Positions 5,941-25,066 of a stretch of DNA of 25,160 bases are shown here, piece after piece (the stretch's first letter is position 1; every line of letters begins with the position of its first letter). The position numbers were made by a program, and so were the translations under genes. The stretch comes from Syncephalis plumigaleata. Lineage: Eukaryota > Zoopagomycota > Zoopagomycetes > Zoopagales > Piptocephalidaceae. The stretch spans positions 1 to 25,160 of the forward strand of contig JAIXMF010000191.1 in assembly GCA_025201365.1 (NCBI GenBank), in the 5' to 3' direction. The notes beneath the pieces were generated by a model. It did no database searches. It saw nothing but the letters and a program-made list of their open reading frames with translations, and was not told the origin of the DNA.

Positions 5941-6605
5941 TTGTTTATTGTTCGTTCTAGTCCTTTGTTTTCTATCACTGTCCTGCTTATTTATCAATGT
6001 TTAAGCGTTTACTGCTCTCGTTGTAATATGTACCTTTTACTTTACCACTCTTTTCCGTCGTCTGTTTGTATGCCACCCTTACGTCATGCTTTTATTTGTA
6101 TTTCATTTGTTTACTGCCATATACATACTCTATTGACCTACAAGCATACACTGCTTCTTCAAATAAACTGGCATACGTGTTCATGCACCCTTCCTTGCTC
6201 CTTCCTTGCTCATTCGTGACAAGTCAGTCATTCTACTAGTTACTGCCTGTTTATTATATTGTTTATCGTGTATTCTCCTTGTTCACTCGTTGCTACCTCT
6301 ATGCAATTAACCGTAAGCATTATCATCATAATTTATCTATCATACTAGTTTATTACTACTTGTAAGTACATGACATGGCAATATCCAACTATACTAGTAC
6401 ACTTGTATCATCTACCTTATAGAATTGATGATGATAGTTATTGCTATCAATAAATGATCCATTACTCATACTGAATTGTTATTATTATCGTGCTGTATCA
6501 ATTGGCATTTCTATGATGATAATGGTGTTAACAATTGTGTAGAGTTATTTATTCCTAATAAGAAAAGGCTTACAGCGCAAATTGGATGGAAAAACACTGT
6601 ATTTT
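5941..6605 (+). repeat. Dispersed repeat, copy A
   Basis: About 665 bp aligned by eye with copy B at 19694-20360 in the same orientation, roughly nine bases in ten identical. Similarity starts abruptly at TTGTTTATTGTTCG and fades after GGAAAA..CTGTATT. There is no transposase or reverse transcriptase. The long open frame shared by A and B starts from TTG or GTG, not ATG, and looks fortuitous. No clear terminal inverted repeats or target-site duplication seen. It could be a non-autonomous element or a solo remnant. Confidence 0.75.
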
Positions 6606-14033: not shown

Positions 14034-14696
14034 GATAATGAACGGTGAATCCTAACAAGAAAGCGGAAAAGGAATTCGGGACAAAGTGGTAATATTCTTT
14101 GTGTGTCGCGTTGATCATTTATTTCTTTTTTTCCGATCTGTAATCCAAATTCGGATTATGATCAACCATTTTTTGTGCATGGTATTTATGATACGATGGA
14201 TTATAGTATTAGCCAAGTAGCATTGTACTGATACCCTATGCATTATGCTTATACTAGAGTATTCATGGTACACCGTTCAATGTATAACAGACAATTTGTT
14301 TACGATTCTATAACGTACAACATAATCTATAGCATTTTATTCGTCGTATACTACGAAATTGTCACAATCATTCCATCCTATATGTAGTGTGTGAGATCAC
14401 ATGTCATTTAACAAAAAGAAAATGACGAAAAGATAGAACGAGGAGGCGATAGATGGAAATACTCGTTACTTCTTACATTTAATATTGACTGCGTTAATCA
14501 AGTTTGTATTGCTAAAAGCGGTACTTGGCTTGTGATAGACCATCTTTTTAAGATCTCAGCTTCATCAGAAAGATCTATGATATAGATGCAATGCAATTTT
14601 CTTCGTCTTCTTCTTCTTCTTCTTCTTCTTCTTCTTCCTGTTCTTGTTCTTCTTTTACGGTCTATCTAGCAACGTACACTTATTCGCTATTTTGCA
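14034..14696. promoter_or_regulatory. Divergent promoter region between TRAP1 and the first pseudo-subtilase
   Basis: 663 bp shared by two divergently transcribed genes. It contains a CTT trinucleotide run (about 14600-14638) ending about 60 nt before the ATG at 14697. I find no convincing heat-shock element or TATA box. No coding content. Confidence 0.45.
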
Positions 14697-16559
14697 ATGA
14701 AACGATACTATTGCATTTTATTTGTTCTAAACTTACACTTACTATTGCTAGCACCATCATTGACTAGAGCAAATGATGGTTTGAACTATGACGAAGACTT
14801 TGGTGGATTTCCTAAATATAGCGTACCGCATGCTATATCTAAAGTCAATGGCAAAGTAGTAGATCTAAAGTTTCATTATGAAATAACCGGCGTTCGACGC
14901 TTGCACTCCTTGGGATTTAGAGGATCCGGAGTGAAGATTGCAATGCTCGAGAACGGCATCCACCATCATCATCCTGCATTACAAAATATCGGTTCATCTC
15001 CATTAAATACTGACACTAATCCTGGATCAGCTCAGACGCATAATGCAGATACGCAATCAGAAGCAATCAAAGCGTTTCATGGACGTGGCACCAGTATGGC
15101 CGGTATTATTGCCGGTAATACTAAAGACTATTTCGGTGTGGCTCCTGAGGCACAACTCACCAGTTACAATGTTTTCGGTAGTCAGGGCTCGACATCGACA
15201 TCGACATCCGCTGTGTTGTCCGCCTTGAATATGGCCATAAATCAAGGTGCACGTGTGATTACCTTGCCGGAAATTAAAACAATCGATGCTAGTGCGACAG
15301 AACTAAAGAACCTAATCATCAATGCCGGAAAGAAGGGTATAGTGATGATTGTCGCAGCAAGTGATAATAATTACCTAAATAACAACCATTTCTCGTACAC
15401 TGGACTGCCGGTGATATCTGTCGGTGGATACAGAACACCGTATCAGCTGGCACATTGGTTCGAGGAATTGGGCACGAAAAAGCGTATTGGATTTACGTCA
15501 ACCTCCAAAGGGTTAAAAGAGAACGGTGATAAAGTCGACATTGTAGTGTTTGATTCCGTACAAACCATTGAAGACTTGTACACTAAGAAAAGTGCTCATA
15601 AGATGATACTAGTGATGTCGTATACCATAACCAATGCTAATTTATTGAGGCATGCAAAAAGTCTAAATGCTCTGGGAGTAATCACTACACGACCGGACAC
15701 TAGGACAAGAAGAATGATATACCCTGTTCCATTGTTTGTCATCAGCAAGAATGACGCCGAATACATAAGGTCAAGAAAGGGTCAGAGCAAGTTTAACTTC
15801 ACCAATCAACGCGGTAATATTCTGGAGGAAGAACTGCCGTCATTGGATAGACTTGAAACGTTGGACAACGTTTCCCATATACCCGCACGTCCTGACATAC
15901 TTGGACCAAGTACTAACGTATTAGCTCCTAGTGATCATGGAACTCATGGTTATACGATGTTTAACGGTGTATTCGCGGCAATTGCCTATGTCACTGGAGC
16001 AGTAGCATTGTTAATACAGTCCAACGTGGACAATACAAATAATTATTTGTTTGTCAAAGGTTCATTACAGAATTATGCAACACCTTTGCTATTCCAAGGC
16101 ATGAAAGTGCCCGTATCGGTGATATTTCAAGGTGCGGGCGCTATAAATGTCAGAGATACGCTAATGAACTCGCTTGCTGTCGCGCCGTCCTTGCTCGATT
16201 CCAACACTCAGGAAAGAACGGTAAAGCATGCGGTAGCCATTTCTAGCTTGGAAATTATTCCAAACTTCTCGTTCTCGTCCGCCTCATCGATATACATATT
16301 GCAGCATAACTCGCAAACTCACTTGATACATCCTAACAGTGGTGGGGCAAACACTACGGTAACAGTTTCACCACCCGTACCAGCTAATCAATATGGCCTC
16401 ACCCAGTTTGAGGTCACAATCAATGTGGCGGCCAATATTCCACCTAAGAGTGTACTGCGATACTCTGGGTTTATTTTGATTCATTTAACTCCACCATTGA
16501 TAGGGCAATACACTCGTAAGCTCATTTGTCTTCCTTACAACGGCAAAATAAGCGGTTAA
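14697..16559 (+). CDS. Secreted subtilase-like protein, catalytic triad lost (pseudo-subtilase 1)
   Basis: Single exon, 620 aa. A signal peptide (MKRYYCILFVLNLHLLLLAP, then SLTRA) precedes an S8 subtilase fold of the Vpr-like type. This has a protease-associated insert (about 265-375) and a C-terminal fibronectin-like region (about 490-620). Fold landmarks remain: VKIAMLENG (79-87), GTSMAGIIAG (131-140), GVAPEAQL, and YVTGAVALL (431-439). The triad is gone. The Asp site is E85. The His of GHGTH is R130. The Ser of GTSMA is probably F426, in NGVFAAIAY. A HHHHP run follows the Asp site. A secreted non-catalytic role (binding, decoy or inhibitor) is inferred. The start is the only in-frame ATG before the signal peptide. 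It shares a near-identical DNA block (15136-15495) with the next gene. Confidence 0.85.
   Translation: MKRYYCILFVLNLHLLLLAPSLTRANDGLNYDEDFGGFPKYSVPHAISKVNGKVVDLKFHYEITGVRRLHSLGFRGSGVKIAMLENGIHHHHPALQNIGSSPLNTDTNPGSAQTHNADTQSEAIKAFHGRGTSMAGIIAGNTKDYFGVAPEAQLTSYNVFGSQGSTSTSTSAVLSALNMAINQGARVITLPEIKTIDASATELKNLIINAGKKGIVMIVAASDNNYLNNNHFSYTGLPVISVGGYRTPYQLAHWFEELGTKKRIGFTSTSKGLKENGDKVDIVVFDSVQTIEDLYTKKSAHKMILVMSYTITNANLLRHAKSLNALGVITTRPDTRTRRMIYPVPLFVISKNDAEYIRSRKGQSKFNFTNQRGNILEEELPSLDRLETLDNVSHIPARPDILGPSTNVLAPSDHGTHGYTMFNGVFAAIAYVTGAVALLIQSNVDNTNNYLFVKGSLQNYATPLLFQGMKVPVSVIFQGAGAINVRDTLMNSLAVAPSLLDSNTQERTVKHAVAISSLEIIPNFSFSSASSIYILQHNSQTHLIHPNSGGANTTVTVSPPVPANQYGLTQFEVTINVAANIPPKSVLRYSGFILIHLTPPLIGQYTRKLICLPYNGKISG
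15136..15495 (+). repeat. Homogenised block shared with pseudo-subtilase 2 (copy 1)
   Basis: This block and 17539-17894 are about nine in ten identical, with one uninterrupted identical run of about 70 bp. The rest of the two genes is much more diverged. Copy 1 has one extra TCGACA unit. Boundaries are abrupt: GGTGT(G/T)GCTCCTGA at the start and GCGTATTGGATTTA at the end. Confidence 0.8.
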
Positions 16560-17119
16560 ACAACGGTATGAAATAACTTGCGATGAATTAGATTAGAATA
16601 ACGCAGTTAGATAAACGTTGTCATTAGTTTTTTTTACTAGTTGGAAAGGCTAAGTATACACACATACACATATTAAAACAAACAATTAAAACGGAATCAT
16701 TTGTAACTATTGATTTTGTATAATGCTGAAACAACATGTCGATCATAATGTATATGTTGATAGTATTCCTAAAAGGAATCGTTATGATGAAACGACATGT
16801 GCTAATGCATCAAAGTTTCATGCTTGTAATGATGTAGATCGTCCGTACGTTACAACTCAGCATGGCGCTGGTCATAAAAATGAGTGTATCTCCACGTGCA
16901 CAATCGTTTGAGCATTCCTAGATTGTAAAATTTGCACTAAAATTTGCATTTATACGTGTCTATATATGGAATCCAAAACCAGCGTGTATCATCAAAAGCA
17001 GCATTCTGCAATGTGATTTATTCATAATAAATATCTAATAGATCGCATGGATTGATGCTGGAAACCATTCACCGTTACTTTCTTTTCACGTACCTCATCC
17101 GCATAGATACAATCATTTC
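16560..17119. other. Intergenic region between the two pseudo-subtilases
   Basis: A TATATATG element at 16961 lies about 160 bp before the next ATG and could be its TATA box. An ATG-started frame of 62 codons at 16723-16911 has four cysteines but no signal peptide and no recognisable family. I do not call it a gene. Confidence 0.4.
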
Positions 17120-18937
17120 ATGATGAAGTCACATCACATTTACACTATATTATCCATACTATTGGGGTTAGAAGCGACAACAGCATTAGTACCAAGCAAT
17201 GACAACAATGCAGTGCCGTATTTAGACAATTTCCAAGTAGAATTGCTTGGAACAAATCCGCATATCATCTCCAAGATCCACAAAAAACCAATTGACTTGA
17301 CGTCGTATCATAAAACATCTGGAGTTGAGGTATTACATTCGAAGAACGTTCATGGTGATGGTGTAAATATAGCCATAATTAACGATATGCCACCGTGAGT
17401 TCTATTAAATACTCAGCTCTTTAGTTTACTAACGTATATTATACTCCATCTCGATAGATCACGCGTCTCTTATAACAAACATAGTAGCAATAGTTATAGA
17501 ATGGAAAGTGTCATTAAGTTAAAAACAGCTTATGCTAAGGGTGTTGCTCCTGACGCACAACTCACCAGTTACAATGTTTTCGATAACCATGGCTCGACAT
17601 CGACATCTGCTGTGTTGTCCGCCTTGAATATGGCCATAAAGCAAGGTGCTCGTGTGATTACCTTGCCGGAAATTAAAACAATCGATGCTAGTGCGACAGA
17701 ACTAAAGAACCTAATCATCAATGCCGAAAAGGAGGGTATAGTGATGATTATCGCAGCAAGCCATAATAATTACTCGAATGACAAGCGTTTCTCGTACATT
17801 GGACTACCGGTGATATCTGTCGGTGGATACAGAACACCGTATCAGCTGGCACATTGGTTCGAGGAATTGGGCACGAAAAAGCGTATTGGATTTATGTCTC
17901 CTTGCAAATCACTAAAATATGAGAAGGGTACATTTGATATTGTGGCCTTGAACGGGAATCAACAGAGAATAAGTCATACCATTCCTACGGGTGATAAGAT
18001 TGCATTGATGATACCTCCAGAAGCGGATATTGAGAGCGCAATGCAAATGGCAATAGCAAGTAATGCCCAAGCAATAGTTGCTACGTACTCGGCCGCTAGA
18101 CACATGTTAAACCACTGCTTAGTTCCGGTGTTTCTTATTAGCCAGGATGATACAAATTATATACGTTTTAGGAAGGAACAACATAAATTCTTGTTCTCTG
18201 GTCAATACGGTAATCTAAAAGAACCTGAGTATGAGACTATAGACGAGGTTATATCGTCTGGAATCTCACAAGGAATGCCAGTTCTTGCTGATATACTTGT
18301 GCCAGGCGACAATATATTGGCCGCCATTCCAGGTAGTGCTGGTGCATACGGCCCGTACAATGATATATGTGCAGCGGTTGCCTATGCTGCAGGAACAGCA
18401 GCGCTGCTATTACCATTCAACGACATGCAATTAACCAACACCCAGTTCATCAAAGCTAGGTTACAAAACAACGCACTACCCATTCTTGATCCAAAATCGC
18501 GTGCCGTGGAGCCAGTTACCAGCCAAGGAGCGGGTATGATCGATGTGGCAGACGCATACCTGAATCCTCTGACTTATGAACCGGGCGAAATCAACCTAGG
18601 AGTCTTGCCACGTACAAGCATTAGAGTTCCTGTCAGAATTAGTAGTCTCGGAAGTATCTTGAAACTTACGGTCACCTATATCCCGGCAAAGAGTACACGG
18701 AAGTCGCTTATGGGCACGCCCGTACCCACTCCAATTAAGATTAATCTTACGTTTTCCGAGATTGTCAAGTCGGGTAATCTTGCCCAGTTCGAGGTGTTAT
18801 TCAATCTCAACCCTAATATTCCGCAAGGAGATGAGCTACATTTCTCGGGATATATAGTCGTTAAAGAGGATAGATCTAATGGAATGAAGCCGTTTGTTAA
18901 TACACTTCGTATTCCATACCAGGGAATAGTTGGCTAG
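17120..18937 (+). CDS. Secreted subtilase-like protein, catalytic triad and His segment lost (pseudo-subtilase 2)
   Basis: Two exons: 17120-17394 and 17458-18937, 584 aa. The intron has a TTACTAAC branch point, and the donor is GTGAGT. A signal peptide (MMKSHHIYTILSILLGLEAT) leads an S8-type fold with a protease-associated insert and C-terminal beta region, as in the neighbour. The Asp site VNIAIINDM has N88. The segment carrying the catalytic His is absent: only about 27 residues separate the Asp region from GVAPDAQL, against about 60 in the neighbour. The gap falls at the intron. The Ser site NDICAAVAY has C396. The protein should not be a working serine protease. Identity with the neighbour is concentrated in one block (17539-17894). 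A poly(A) signal AATAAA occurs at 19067. Confidence 0.83.
17539..17894 (+). repeat. Homogenised block shared with pseudo-subtilase 1 (copy 2)
   Basis: Partner of 15136-15495. It encodes residues from GVAPDAQ to GTKKRIGF. Differences are scattered substitutions and the missing TCGACA unit. Confidence 0.8.
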
Positions 18938-19693: not shown

Positions 19694-20360
19694 TTGTTTA
19701 TTGTTCGTTCTAGTCCTTCGTTTTCTATCACTGTCCTGCTTATTTATCAATGTTTAAACATTTACTGCTCTCGTTGTAATATGTACCTTTTACTTTACCA
19801 CTCTTTTCCGTCGTCTGTTTGTATGCCACCCTTACGTCATGCTTTTATTTGTATTTTACTTGTTTACTGCCATCTACATACTCTATCTACCTACAAGCAT
19901 ACACTGCTTCTTCGAATAAACTGGCATACGTGTTCATGCGCCCTTCCTTGCTCATTCCTTGCTCGTTCGTGACAAGTCAGTCATTCTACTAGTTACTGCT
20001 TGTTTATTATATTGTTTATCGTGTATTCTCCTTGTTCACTCGTTGCTCTCTATGCAAGTAACCGTAAGCAGTATCGTCATAACTTGTCTATTATGCTAAT
20101 CAATAGCTACTTGTAAGTACATGACATGGCAATATCCAACTATACTCGTACACTTGTATCATCTATCATATAGAATTGATGATGATGTTATCGCTATCAA
20201 TATAGGATCCATTACTAATACTGAATTCTTATTATCGTGCTGTATCAATTGGCATTTCTACGATGATAATGGTGCCAACTAATATGCAAATCTATTTATT
20301 AATAAACTGCAAAAGTTAAAGGCCAGCAATGTTAACTGGTTGGAAAACCCTGCATTATAA
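19694..20360 (+). repeat. Dispersed repeat, copy B
   Basis: Direct-orientation partner of copy A (5941-6605), about 13.75 kb away. The tail also matches inverted fragment C (3450-3560). It ends about 50 bp beyond the stop of the secreted kinase gene, so may supply its 3' untranslated region. No protein of a mobile element is encoded. Confidence 0.75.
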
Positions 20361-20412: not shown

Positions 20413-21543
20413 CTAACCACGACGCATTGGATATGGATTAGGATAACGACGTGCCGATGGCGGTGGCTCGTTGCCCGATTTCTCACCCTTAAACCACGCA
20501 AGCTTAAGCAACTCTAGTGGTGTGGCACGCTTTGCTGGATCGGGATTCAACATGGCGGCAGTCACTTGATTTATAAGACTATTCCAATGGTTCAATGGTT
20601 CTGGCCATTGTGATGACGCGCGAGTATGGTAGGGTTGCATCAGTCTACCGCTGATAGAAGAATGGAGTGTGGCGCCCAATGACCAAACATCAGTCTTGAC
20701 GTAATTGATGTTCTTTAGCGGTGTTATCCACAGTTCGGGTGCTCTGAATAGTTCCGCACCAAGTACATGAGGAGGAGCAGTCAGTGGTGTGGCTTCACCA
20801 AAATCAATAATTGTTACTCGTAATACGGCCGGCGCATTATGATAACGTATCACAGGTAGACCTTGGTAGGTGTTGCCAGCGGCAATTTGTTGGGGTGTCG
20901 GACTGGTGAATGTCACTTGAATGTTATCCGCCTTCAAATCGCCATGAGCCCATCCTGTTTTGTGAATGGCATCGAGGGCCAAGATAATTTGACGGAATAG
21001 CTCACGAGTGACAGCGTCCCTCTCCGAGTCATCTGCTTGCATGATAACATCGCTCAGTGGATAGCTCTTTTCAACTAGCCTGGTAACGATACAGTGACAG
21101 TTTTGCTGTGGCATACCAATGAGTGGTAGTGAGAAAGCGTCCAATAGCTCGACTACATGTCTATTAATGAACAATGAGTACGGTGCCATCAGACTGTTAC
21201 GAACGGCGTTCATCTTTTGCAATGCGTTGACTTCGGCGCTGAATACGGCTTTATCTTCTTCGCTTAAACACTTCATATAGCCAGGTCGTCCATCCAATTG
21301 GACTGACGCAGAAAACAGCGTGTTTATTGTTGTTATGGGAGTCTTGATAGTGAGTCTTGAAGCCAGTGCGGAGAAATCGGGGTTACCCTGCTTCGTTGGA
21401 AAGTTATTGCCAGCAATAGATTCCATGGCCGTGGACGGCATGATTAATGATGTAGGTGAAAGCACCAACCACGCAGTAACCAAGAAATGACATAGTGATG
21501 TAGCCAGACTGGCACACGATTTAGAAAGCAATAGAGTAACCAT
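20413..21543 (-). CDS. Putative secreted protein kinase, catalytic motifs intact
   Basis: Single exon, 376 aa. A hydrophobic N-terminus (about residues 3-32, SLATSLCHFLVTAWLVLSP) suggests a signal peptide or signal anchor. The kinase domain follows: YMK (K91), candidate helix-C Glu E104, HGDLKADN (200-207) with catalytic D202, K204 and N207, DFG (247-249), APE (268-270) and DVWSLG (285-290). The glycine-rich loop is not recognisable. An insert rich in Pro/Gln/Thr (about 211-238) separates the catalytic loop from DFG. A basic Pro-rich tail ends the protein. Predicted activity is Ser/Thr phosphorylation, outside the cell or in the secretory pathway; substrate unknown. A TATAAAAG on the minus strand (21689-21682) lies about 140 bp before the ATG. 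Resembles the pseudokinase at 3865-5160 in motif layout. Confidence 0.8.
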   Translation of the reverse strand: MVTLLLSKSCASLATSLCHFLVTAWLVLSPTSLIMPSTAMESIAGNNFPTKQGNPDFSALASRLTIKTPITTINTLFSASVQLDGRPGYMKCLSEEDKAVFSAEVNALQKMNAVRNSLMAPYSLFINRHVVELLDAFSLPLIGMPQQNCHCIVTRLVEKSYPLSDVIMQADDSERDAVTRELFRQIILALDAIHKTGWAHGDLKADNIQVTFTSPTPQQIAAGNTYQGLPVIRYHNAPAVLRVTIIDFGEATPLTAPPHVLGAELFRAPELWITPLKNINYVKTDVWSLGATLHSSISGRLMQPYHTRASSQWPEPLNHWNSLINQVTAAMLNPDPAKRATPLELLKLAWFKGEKSGNEPPPSARRYPNPYPMRRG

Positions 21544-24550: not shown

Positions 24551-25066
24551 ATGAAGTCACTATTCTATACCGTCCTCATCGGCATGCTAATGTCATCGGT
24601 CGCACAAGCCGGTAATAACACGGGAGGATTCGATTGCAAGACCGTTCGTATTCAAATCGGCGATCGTTGTTTGGCAGTCGTCGATAGCAGTACAGCTCGA
24701 TTTATCGAATGCCGACCCGTTTCTTATTTCGATCCCGAAGTAAACTGGAAGGTATTGCAGCACGGTGACTACTATCAACTAATCAATACGAAGAATCATC
24801 GCTGTGCTCAACAAGACTCCAATGTAATACTGGCTAATTGCGATACAAATAACTCTAAACAGCTCTGGCGTTTCTATTACGAAAACGGATACCCTGCTAA
24901 TCATTACAAGGTTATTTCCAAGTTTAGTGATGATAAACATAACGGCAAATGGGATTGTATCGAATATGAAAAGACATTCACTTCGAGTGGAGGTGCTTTT
25001 GTAAGGGGATGTAACAGGCCAAAGTGGACGCAATTCTTTGGTATTCTTACTATGCCGAAAGAATAG
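24551..25066 (+). CDS. Small secreted beta-trefoil (ricin-B-like) protein
   Basis: Single exon, 171 aa. The signal peptide MKSLFYTVLIGMLMSSVAQA has a probable cleavage after AQA. The mature part shows a three-fold pattern expected of a beta-trefoil: C40/C54/W66, C85/C97/W106 (in KQLWRF) and C136/C154/W159. This cysteine and Q-x-W-like spacing matches ricin-type lectin domains, here without any attached catalytic chain. Likely role is binding sugars or proteins outside the cell; carbohydrate-binding residues cannot be judged by eye. Seven cysteines in the mature chain leave one without an obvious partner. Promoter TATA and a poly(A) signal (25111) frame the gene neatly. Confidence 0.72.
   Translation: MKSLFYTVLIGMLMSSVAQAGNNTGGFDCKTVRIQIGDRCLAVVDSSTARFIECRPVSYFDPEVNWKVLQHGDYYQLINTKNHRCAQQDSNVILANCDTNNSKQLWRFYYENGYPANHYKVISKFSDDKHNGKWDCIEYEKTFTSSGGAFVRGCNRPKWTQFFGILTMPKE

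Follow-up and report, generated by a model that had tools for sequence, protein, structure and literature searches.

A tandem pair of putative secreted pseudo-subtilases in the fungus Syncephalis plumigaleata

Introduction

Pseudo-subtilases are already known from two kinds of organisms: CspC and CspA from C. difficile (PMC6636752) and PIMMS2 from Plasmodium (PMC5520436). In CspC and CspA two triad residues are replaced and the proteins have a non-proteolytic signalling or regulatory role, with the proteolytic paralogue CspB acting in the same pathway. PIMMS2 has lost the HGT and GTS motifs, and the lost triad residues vary among its orthologues. Here we describe a stretch of 25,160 nucleotides from Syncephalis plumigaleata (assembly GCA_025201365.1, contig JAIXMF010000191.1, positions 1 to 25,160 of the forward strand; the window in the following), in which two neighbouring genes encode the subtilase-like proteins P1 and P2. 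The original prediction, made from the sequence alone, had described the pair as tandem secreted subtilases with every catalytic residue replaced, and had known of no such family in fungi.

This last statement agrees with the open-access literature searched, which is a part of the whole literature: no fungal pseudo-subtilase was found in it, and subtilisin-fold pseudoproteases with a known or suspected function came only from bacteria and malaria parasites. Three surveys of fungal subtilases removed sequences of this kind. Incomplete triads were treated as potential pseudogenes and excluded in PMC6169396, with the remark that some of them may be neofunctionalised. In PMC5567314 a protein was dropped when its conserved regions carried deletions or when two of its three catalytic residues were replaced. 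Genes whose triad region was ambiguous were taken for pseudogenes in PMC5371821 and removed.

Results

Loss of the catalytic residues in P1 and P2

Both proteins match the profile PF00082 above the curated cut-off of 21.8 bits (P1: E 1.9e-20, 73.8 bits; P2: E 2.6e-9, 37.3 bits). These matches and the subtilisin fold place P1 and P2 in the Peptidase S8 (subtilase) family by descent. Three approaches were used to locate the triad columns: pairwise alignment to Vpr (8jmw), a profile of paralogues from the same genome and an alignment with 57 bacterial and archaeal subtilases. Asp, His, Ser and the oxyanion-hole Asn are each present in 57/57 of these bacterial and archaeal rows; the counts for Asp and His are partly forced, the loci having been found by patterns around these two residues, and those for Ser and Asn are unforced. 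At the three triad columns P1 reads Glu, Arg and Phe, at residues 85, 130 and 426 as originally predicted, and the oxyanion Asn column holds Asp. P2 reads Asn, a deletion and Cys, with His at the oxyanion Asn column; the predicted numbers 88 and 396 are correct when counted from the Met at 17120 and become 87 and 395 when counted from 17123. A second copy of the gene pair on contig C373 shows identical triad letters in the profile. P1 and P2 thus have neither the Asp-His-Ser triad nor the oxyanion-hole Asn that characterize an active S8 serine protease.

A displaced triad in P1 was considered and rejected. Each His of P1 was compared with the 57-row alignment, and only the conserved H92 lies on a kept His column; the HGTH-like letters at residues 414-417 precede the Ser column and are regarded as chance. 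An intact triad elsewhere in the fold, which the prediction had named as a finding that would contradict it, was not detected among these His residues. It is very unlikely that other residues provide a residual or new catalysis, be it through the Cys in P2, through the His-rich stretch in P1 or as a hydrolase that uses a different nucleophile. The Cys of P2 does occupy the Ser column, and P1 contains HHHH at residues 89-92 and His128 two residues ahead of the His column, but P2 has its His segment deleted and its oxyanion Asn changed to His, P1 is left without a nucleophile and without the oxyanion Asn, and the related proteins described below differ from each other at each catalytic position.

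For P1 only, a structure model was calculated with AlphaFold2 on an alignment with 57 prokaryotic rows; a two-row alignment gave a predicted local distance difference test (pLDDT) value of 29.6 and was discarded. According to the model the subtilisin fold of P1 is intact, and together with the PF00082 matches to both proteins this bears out the S8 fold landmarks that had been predicted. A helix at residues 2-17 lies in the stretch of the probable signal peptide. The predicted protease-associated (PA) insert is based on profile columns and on matches of the P1 fold to PA-bearing subtilases, the ranges of which span it; Pfam did not call PF02225 in either protein, with calls or weak calls in some relatives. 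The domain fn3_5 was called only in relatives and not in P1.

Gene models

The long open frames of the prediction were recovered, P1 in one frame and P2 by way of a predicted intron of 63 nt. In the list of open reading frames (ORFs) of at least 150 aa, gene 2 is represented only by 17501-18937. Upstream, a frame beginning at 17120/17123 has a signal-like start; it connects with 17501-18937 through the intron and yields 583 aa from 17123. The intron has a GTGAGT donor, a TACTAAC stretch and a TAG acceptor. Several other acceptors likewise keep the frame open, and the first candidate, at 17457, was chosen because it follows the branch-like TACTAAC. An artefact of the gene models or of the assembly is hardly credible as an explanation of the changed triads. 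Gene 2 does require a predicted intron and the assembly is redundant; gene 1, however, needs no intron, and both triads are identical in the separately assembled contigs C103 (the window) and C373. A TTC trinucleotide run of 18.7 copies (window 14599-14654) lies about 40 bp ahead of gene 1.

A group of related loci with a rebuilt S1 strand

The genome searched comprises 32.6 Mb in 383 contigs and contains 94 high-scoring segment pairs (HSPs) with PF00082. It also gave four matches to chitin synthase, in line with a fungal genome, and none to a flagellar family in a search run without a positive control. The DNA that was read covers 54/94 of them; the other 40, at 27 places, lie outside, contig C40 having been sampled at two motifs. 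One locus outside the read DNA (C112:1280142) and one further locus (C362:470047) resemble second copies of read loci. The aligned set consisted of 39 rows, haplotype copies included. Eight loci that are proteinase-K-like or fragmentary were left out of the tree (L023, L025, L026, L030, L032, L039, L042 and L046), and L040 gave no profile row; the visible motifs of the eight are intact, except at three places with a cut or gapped profile row.

Asp, His, Ser and the oxyanion Asn are each kept in 30/30 rows outside the group to which P1 and P2 belong. The nine remaining rows are P1, P2, both second copies, L050, L051, L052, L045 and L047. According to the alignment P1, P2, L050, L051 and L052 each lack one or more triad residues. 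The states at the Asp, His and Ser columns are S,H,D in L050, G,H,S in L051, G,K,A in L052 and D,S,S in L045, where the His column is uncertain in P2 and L052 owing to gaps. A tree calculated without the catalytic columns placed all nine rows on one side of a branch with a Shimodaira-Hasegawa-like approximate likelihood ratio test (SH-aLRT) value of 96. Firm monophyly including L045 and L047 was not retained, the support being weakened after the conversion and signature columns had been dropped. In this stricter tree (27 rows; catalytic, conversion-tract and signature columns removed) the core clade of P1, P2, L050, L051 and L052 was supported with 100/98, and L045 and L047 perhaps join it.

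The catalytic letters scatter among the members, while two replacements in the substrate cleft are uniform. The column of Ser125 holds Pro in 6/6 group rows (P1, P2, L050, L051, L052 and L045) and Ser in all triad-intact rows of the genome (30/30) and in the prokaryotic rows (57/57). At the column of Pro225 the same 6/6 rows have Ala; Pro is found in 29/30 of the others from this genome and in 57/57 prokaryotic rows. The S1 strand reads Pro-Glu-Ile in all five core rows, which count as four independent rows because P1 and P2 are not independent at the strand. Two cysteines of the PA region are present in 27/30 other rows (the three others are gapped or without the region) and also in L045; all five core rows have lost them.

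In subtilisin, the strand 125-127 pairs with the substrate and with substrate-like inhibitors. Binding of such inhibitors had been among the predicted roles; it is less likely than claimed because the S1 strand, which would have to accept the inhibitor loop, is altered in every member read. This bears on the possibility that P1 and P2 are bodyguard decoys, the cleft of which would capture protease inhibitors from a host or competitor and so shield the active subtilases of the fungus, in the way that the glucanase PsXEG1 is shielded by its inactive paralogue PsXLP1. The genome has numerous triad-intact subtilases that could be shielded, and P1 and P2 are probably secreted, with the fold kept as far as the model of P1 indicates. 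Against it, the inhibitor-pairing strand has become Pro-Glu-Ile in all core rows and the His segment of P2 is deleted, where a decoy would be expected to retain the cleft. We regard this role as quite improbable.

Further members may exist. At the C40 locus, two short reads have Gly in the Asp column and Asp in the Ser column, and C340:687, C373:677, C373:769 and C329:768 are candidates by similarity to P1. Contig C373 carries four P1-like loci within about 335 kb: L052 at 540 kb, two loci at 677 kb and 769 kb, and at 871 kb the second copy of the pair. In the triad-intact near relatives L037/L038 and L043 the Ser motif GTS is changed to GNS.

Sequence exchange between the two genes

A tract of about 365 bp is 92% identical between gene 1 and gene 2; 20-codon blocks elsewhere are 0.28-0.58 identical. 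Both the oxyanion loop and the Pro-Glu-Ile strand lie in the tract, and many of the differences between P1 and P2 within it are found at residues 211-231. This pattern indicates that the tandem pair exchanged sequence and later diverged at the oxyanion loop.

Constraint on the reading frames

In the DNA that was read, both second copies on C373 (from the other haplotype or from a recent duplication) have open frames, and no stop was found between the copies. P1 and its copy differ by 9 synonymous and 7 nonsynonymous changes, P2 and its copy by 9 and 6 (573/583 codons compared). The raw ratio of the proportions of nonsynonymous and synonymous differences (pN/pS) was 0.237 for P1, 0.195 for P2 and 0.216 for both pooled (Fisher P=2.5e-5). 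For triad-intact pairs from the same genome the summed pN/pS was 0.262 (n=11; single pairs 0.04-0.62); the pair L014a/L016 (0.347) was kept out of this sum because L016 had been used already. Transitions account for 27/31 changes between the copies. Because this excess makes the raw pN/pS too favourable, a base-matched null was added, in which the same base changes were placed at random. Pooled, 18 synonymous changes were observed and 9.9 expected (P=0.0027), a weaker result than the raw one; P2 singly gave P=0.011. In the pooled comparison, constraint on the frames of P1 and P2 is thus moderately supported. Furthermore, the frames of P1, P2 and, as far as read, L050 and L052 are open at a divergence exceeding one change per aligned column, and a neutral simulation with 10% base change left P1 free of stops in 0/1000 runs. 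A ratio near 1 together with stops, the second finding that the prediction had named as contradicting it, was not observed when the pair was compared with its second copy.

The alternative to be weighed here is that the clade is inactive and drifting to pseudogenes, with P1 and P2 young in decay. Several observations speak for it or otherwise count against a maintained function. The core member L051 is frame-broken at two points, and decay is thus real in some members of the clade. The catalytic residues vary freely across members. In the base-matched null P1 alone gave P=0.065 and L045/L047 P=0.12, the latter with a raw ratio of 0.43. Inside the conversion tract the pN/pS of P1 versus P2 is about 0.57 (pN 0.055, pS 0.097), with no sign of strong constraint. 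Only 0.5 stops are expected between the two copies, so that their absence says little. Once the tract columns are omitted, the placement of L045 next to the core has weak support (36/48; it appears in 30% of the bootstrap trees). Shortening of the pro-domain is not specific to the pseudo-subtilase clade because short N-termini occur also in triad-intact near relatives (92-145), and all comparison of the clade was made within one genome. Decay is nevertheless unlikely in view of the pooled result, of a pN/pS similar to that of triad-intact paralogues, of the frames still open at the divergence given above together with the outcome of the simulation, and of the new strand, which persists in every core row. 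Selected non-proteolytic binding proteins are therefore favoured over pseudogenes.

Features and surroundings of the gene pair

Table 1. Positions of features of the gene pair in the window.
Feature	Positions	Strand	Basis or remark
Gene 1 (P1), putative pseudo-subtilase	14697..16559	+	single exon, one unbroken frame, 620 aa, no intron
P1 probable signal peptide, about 25 aa	14697..14771	+	judged by eye
P1 Glu85, catalytic Asp column	14949..14951	+	alignment
P1 Arg130, catalytic His column	15084..15086	+	alignment
Gene-conversion-like tract, gene 1 copy	15134..15498	+	92% to gene 2
P1 Pro-Glu-Ile 191-193, in place of S1-pocket strand Ser125-x-Gly127	15267..15275	+	common to 5 core rows
P1 Asp223, oxyanion-hole Asn column	15363..15365	+	profile and alignment
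P1 putative PA insert, approximate limits	15519..15851	+	profile columns and fold match; no Pfam call
P1 Phe426, catalytic Ser column	15972..15974	+	Vpr pairwise and alignment
P1 Ala430, Pro225 column	15984..15986	+	alignment
P1 C-terminal beta-sandwich (Fn3-like) region, approximate limits	16209..16556	+	strands in model
Gene 2 (P2) exon 1, with probable signal peptide (by eye)	17123..17394	+	ends just past Asp column (Asn)
P2 Asn, catalytic Asp column	17381..17383	+	alignment and profile
Gene 2 predicted 63-nt intron	17395..17457	+	GTGAGT ... TTTACTAAC ... GATAG
Gene 2 (P2) exon 2	17458..18937	+	catalytic-His segment deleted
Gene-conversion-like tract, gene 2 copy	17539..17897	+	92% to gene 1
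P2 Cys, catalytic Ser column	18368..18370	+	alignment and profile

The gene pair is flanked by a direct repeat of about 613 bp (window 5941-6558 and 19694-20305), the two copies of which are 84-96% identical in pieces. This repeat is dispersed over the genome; among 574 candidates, the 40 copies that were scored are 92-95% identical to the first copy. On the minus strand, a frame of 376 aa (20413-21543) contains a PF00069 protein kinase domain at residues 128-351 (E 2.4e-16). Its N-terminus is hydrophobic and signal-like, the HRD motif reads HGD, and the product is possibly a secreted kinase-like protein. A plus-strand frame of 171 aa (24551-25066) has a signal-like start and a weak match to the ricin-B-lectin profile PF00652 (27.1 bits, cut-off 29). 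The GC content of the window is 38-41%, compared with 26-37% for the Harpellales (PMC5954228), which had been considered as a source. Many small contigs are near-copies of parts of large ones (C103/C373, C94/C112, C257/C340, C341/C112 and others), so that the assembly appears to retain both haplotypes of a heterozygous genome.

Discussion

The explanation that we prefer, and consider reasonably probable, is that P1 and P2 are secreted pseudoproteases of the Vpr/cucumisin/C5a-peptidase architecture which are no longer proteolytic and are kept for a binding role. Sequence comparison shows the replacement of triad and oxyanion residues, open frames and a clade with a common rebuilt S1 strand, and the fold of P1 is predicted to be intact. 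Selection on a non-proteolytic role, as originally proposed, is partly supported, by the real loss of triad and oxyanion residues and by the restraint on nonsynonymous change (raw ratio 0.22, P=0.0027 in the strict null).

By parsimony, the S1 strand would have been altered first (Ser125 to Pro, Pro225 to Ala). The ancestor of the core would then have lost both PA cysteines and the Asp of the triad, and the remaining catalytic residues would have disappeared piecemeal and differently in each copy. What was once the substrate cleft, now with a Pro-Glu-Ile strand, may act jointly with the putative PA insert to bind a fixed extracellular partner or ligand, in the manner of regulator or sensor pseudo-subtilases such as CspC and not by accepting a substrate-like inhibitor loop. 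A new fixed partner fits better than an inhibitor decoy because the cleft is rebuilt identically in all core rows. The tandem pair would exchange sequence across the Pro-Glu-Ile segment itself.

More tentatively, the group might be a so far unrecognised subfamily of fungal secreted pseudo-subtilases that comprises six or more loci in this genome, arose a single time by the change of Ser-x-Gly to Pro-Glu-Ile and has a cleft for a new partner; it may also occur in other early-diverging fungi and have been filtered from surveys. If this is true, expansions of secreted subtilases, commonly interpreted as enzymes of digestion or virulence, are also a source of non-enzymatic binding proteins. The triad filters of the three fungal surveys may then have discarded real genes, and the raw match lists allow a direct check.

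Compared with known systems, P1 and P2 share fold and domain order with the Vpr, cucumisin and C5a-peptidase types (8jmw, 3vta, 3eif); these are proteases, whereas P1 and P2 are without the triad, the oxyanion Asn, Ser125 and Pro225. PsXLP1 of Phytophthora sojae is likewise a secreted inactive enzyme paralogue, an analogy of function only: it is a glycoside hydrolase and not a protease, and it retains the inhibitor-binding surface (PMC5814044). P1 and P2 fit the pseudoproteases in the sense of CspC and PIMMS2, with the fold kept, the triad lost and the frame constrained (significantly so in the pooled data; in the strict null P1 by itself falls short of significance). Like P1 and P2, PIMMS2 combines a signal peptide with a subtilisin-like domain, but it is membrane-anchored and apicomplexan, and the P. 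berghei protein retains the D/H/S letters and the oxyanion Asn (PMC5520436). CspC and CspA also keep the S8 fold; they differ in being bacterial and spore-bound, with a bound pro-domain and a jelly-roll insert (PMC6636752). P1 and P2 have instead a putative PA-type insert, a C-terminal beta region and no room for a full pro-domain, and go beyond CspC and CspA in that the oxyanion Asn and the S1 strand are lost as well. The sensor and regulator CspC is the nearest worked example of a pseudo-subtilase for the fungal pair (PMC6636752).

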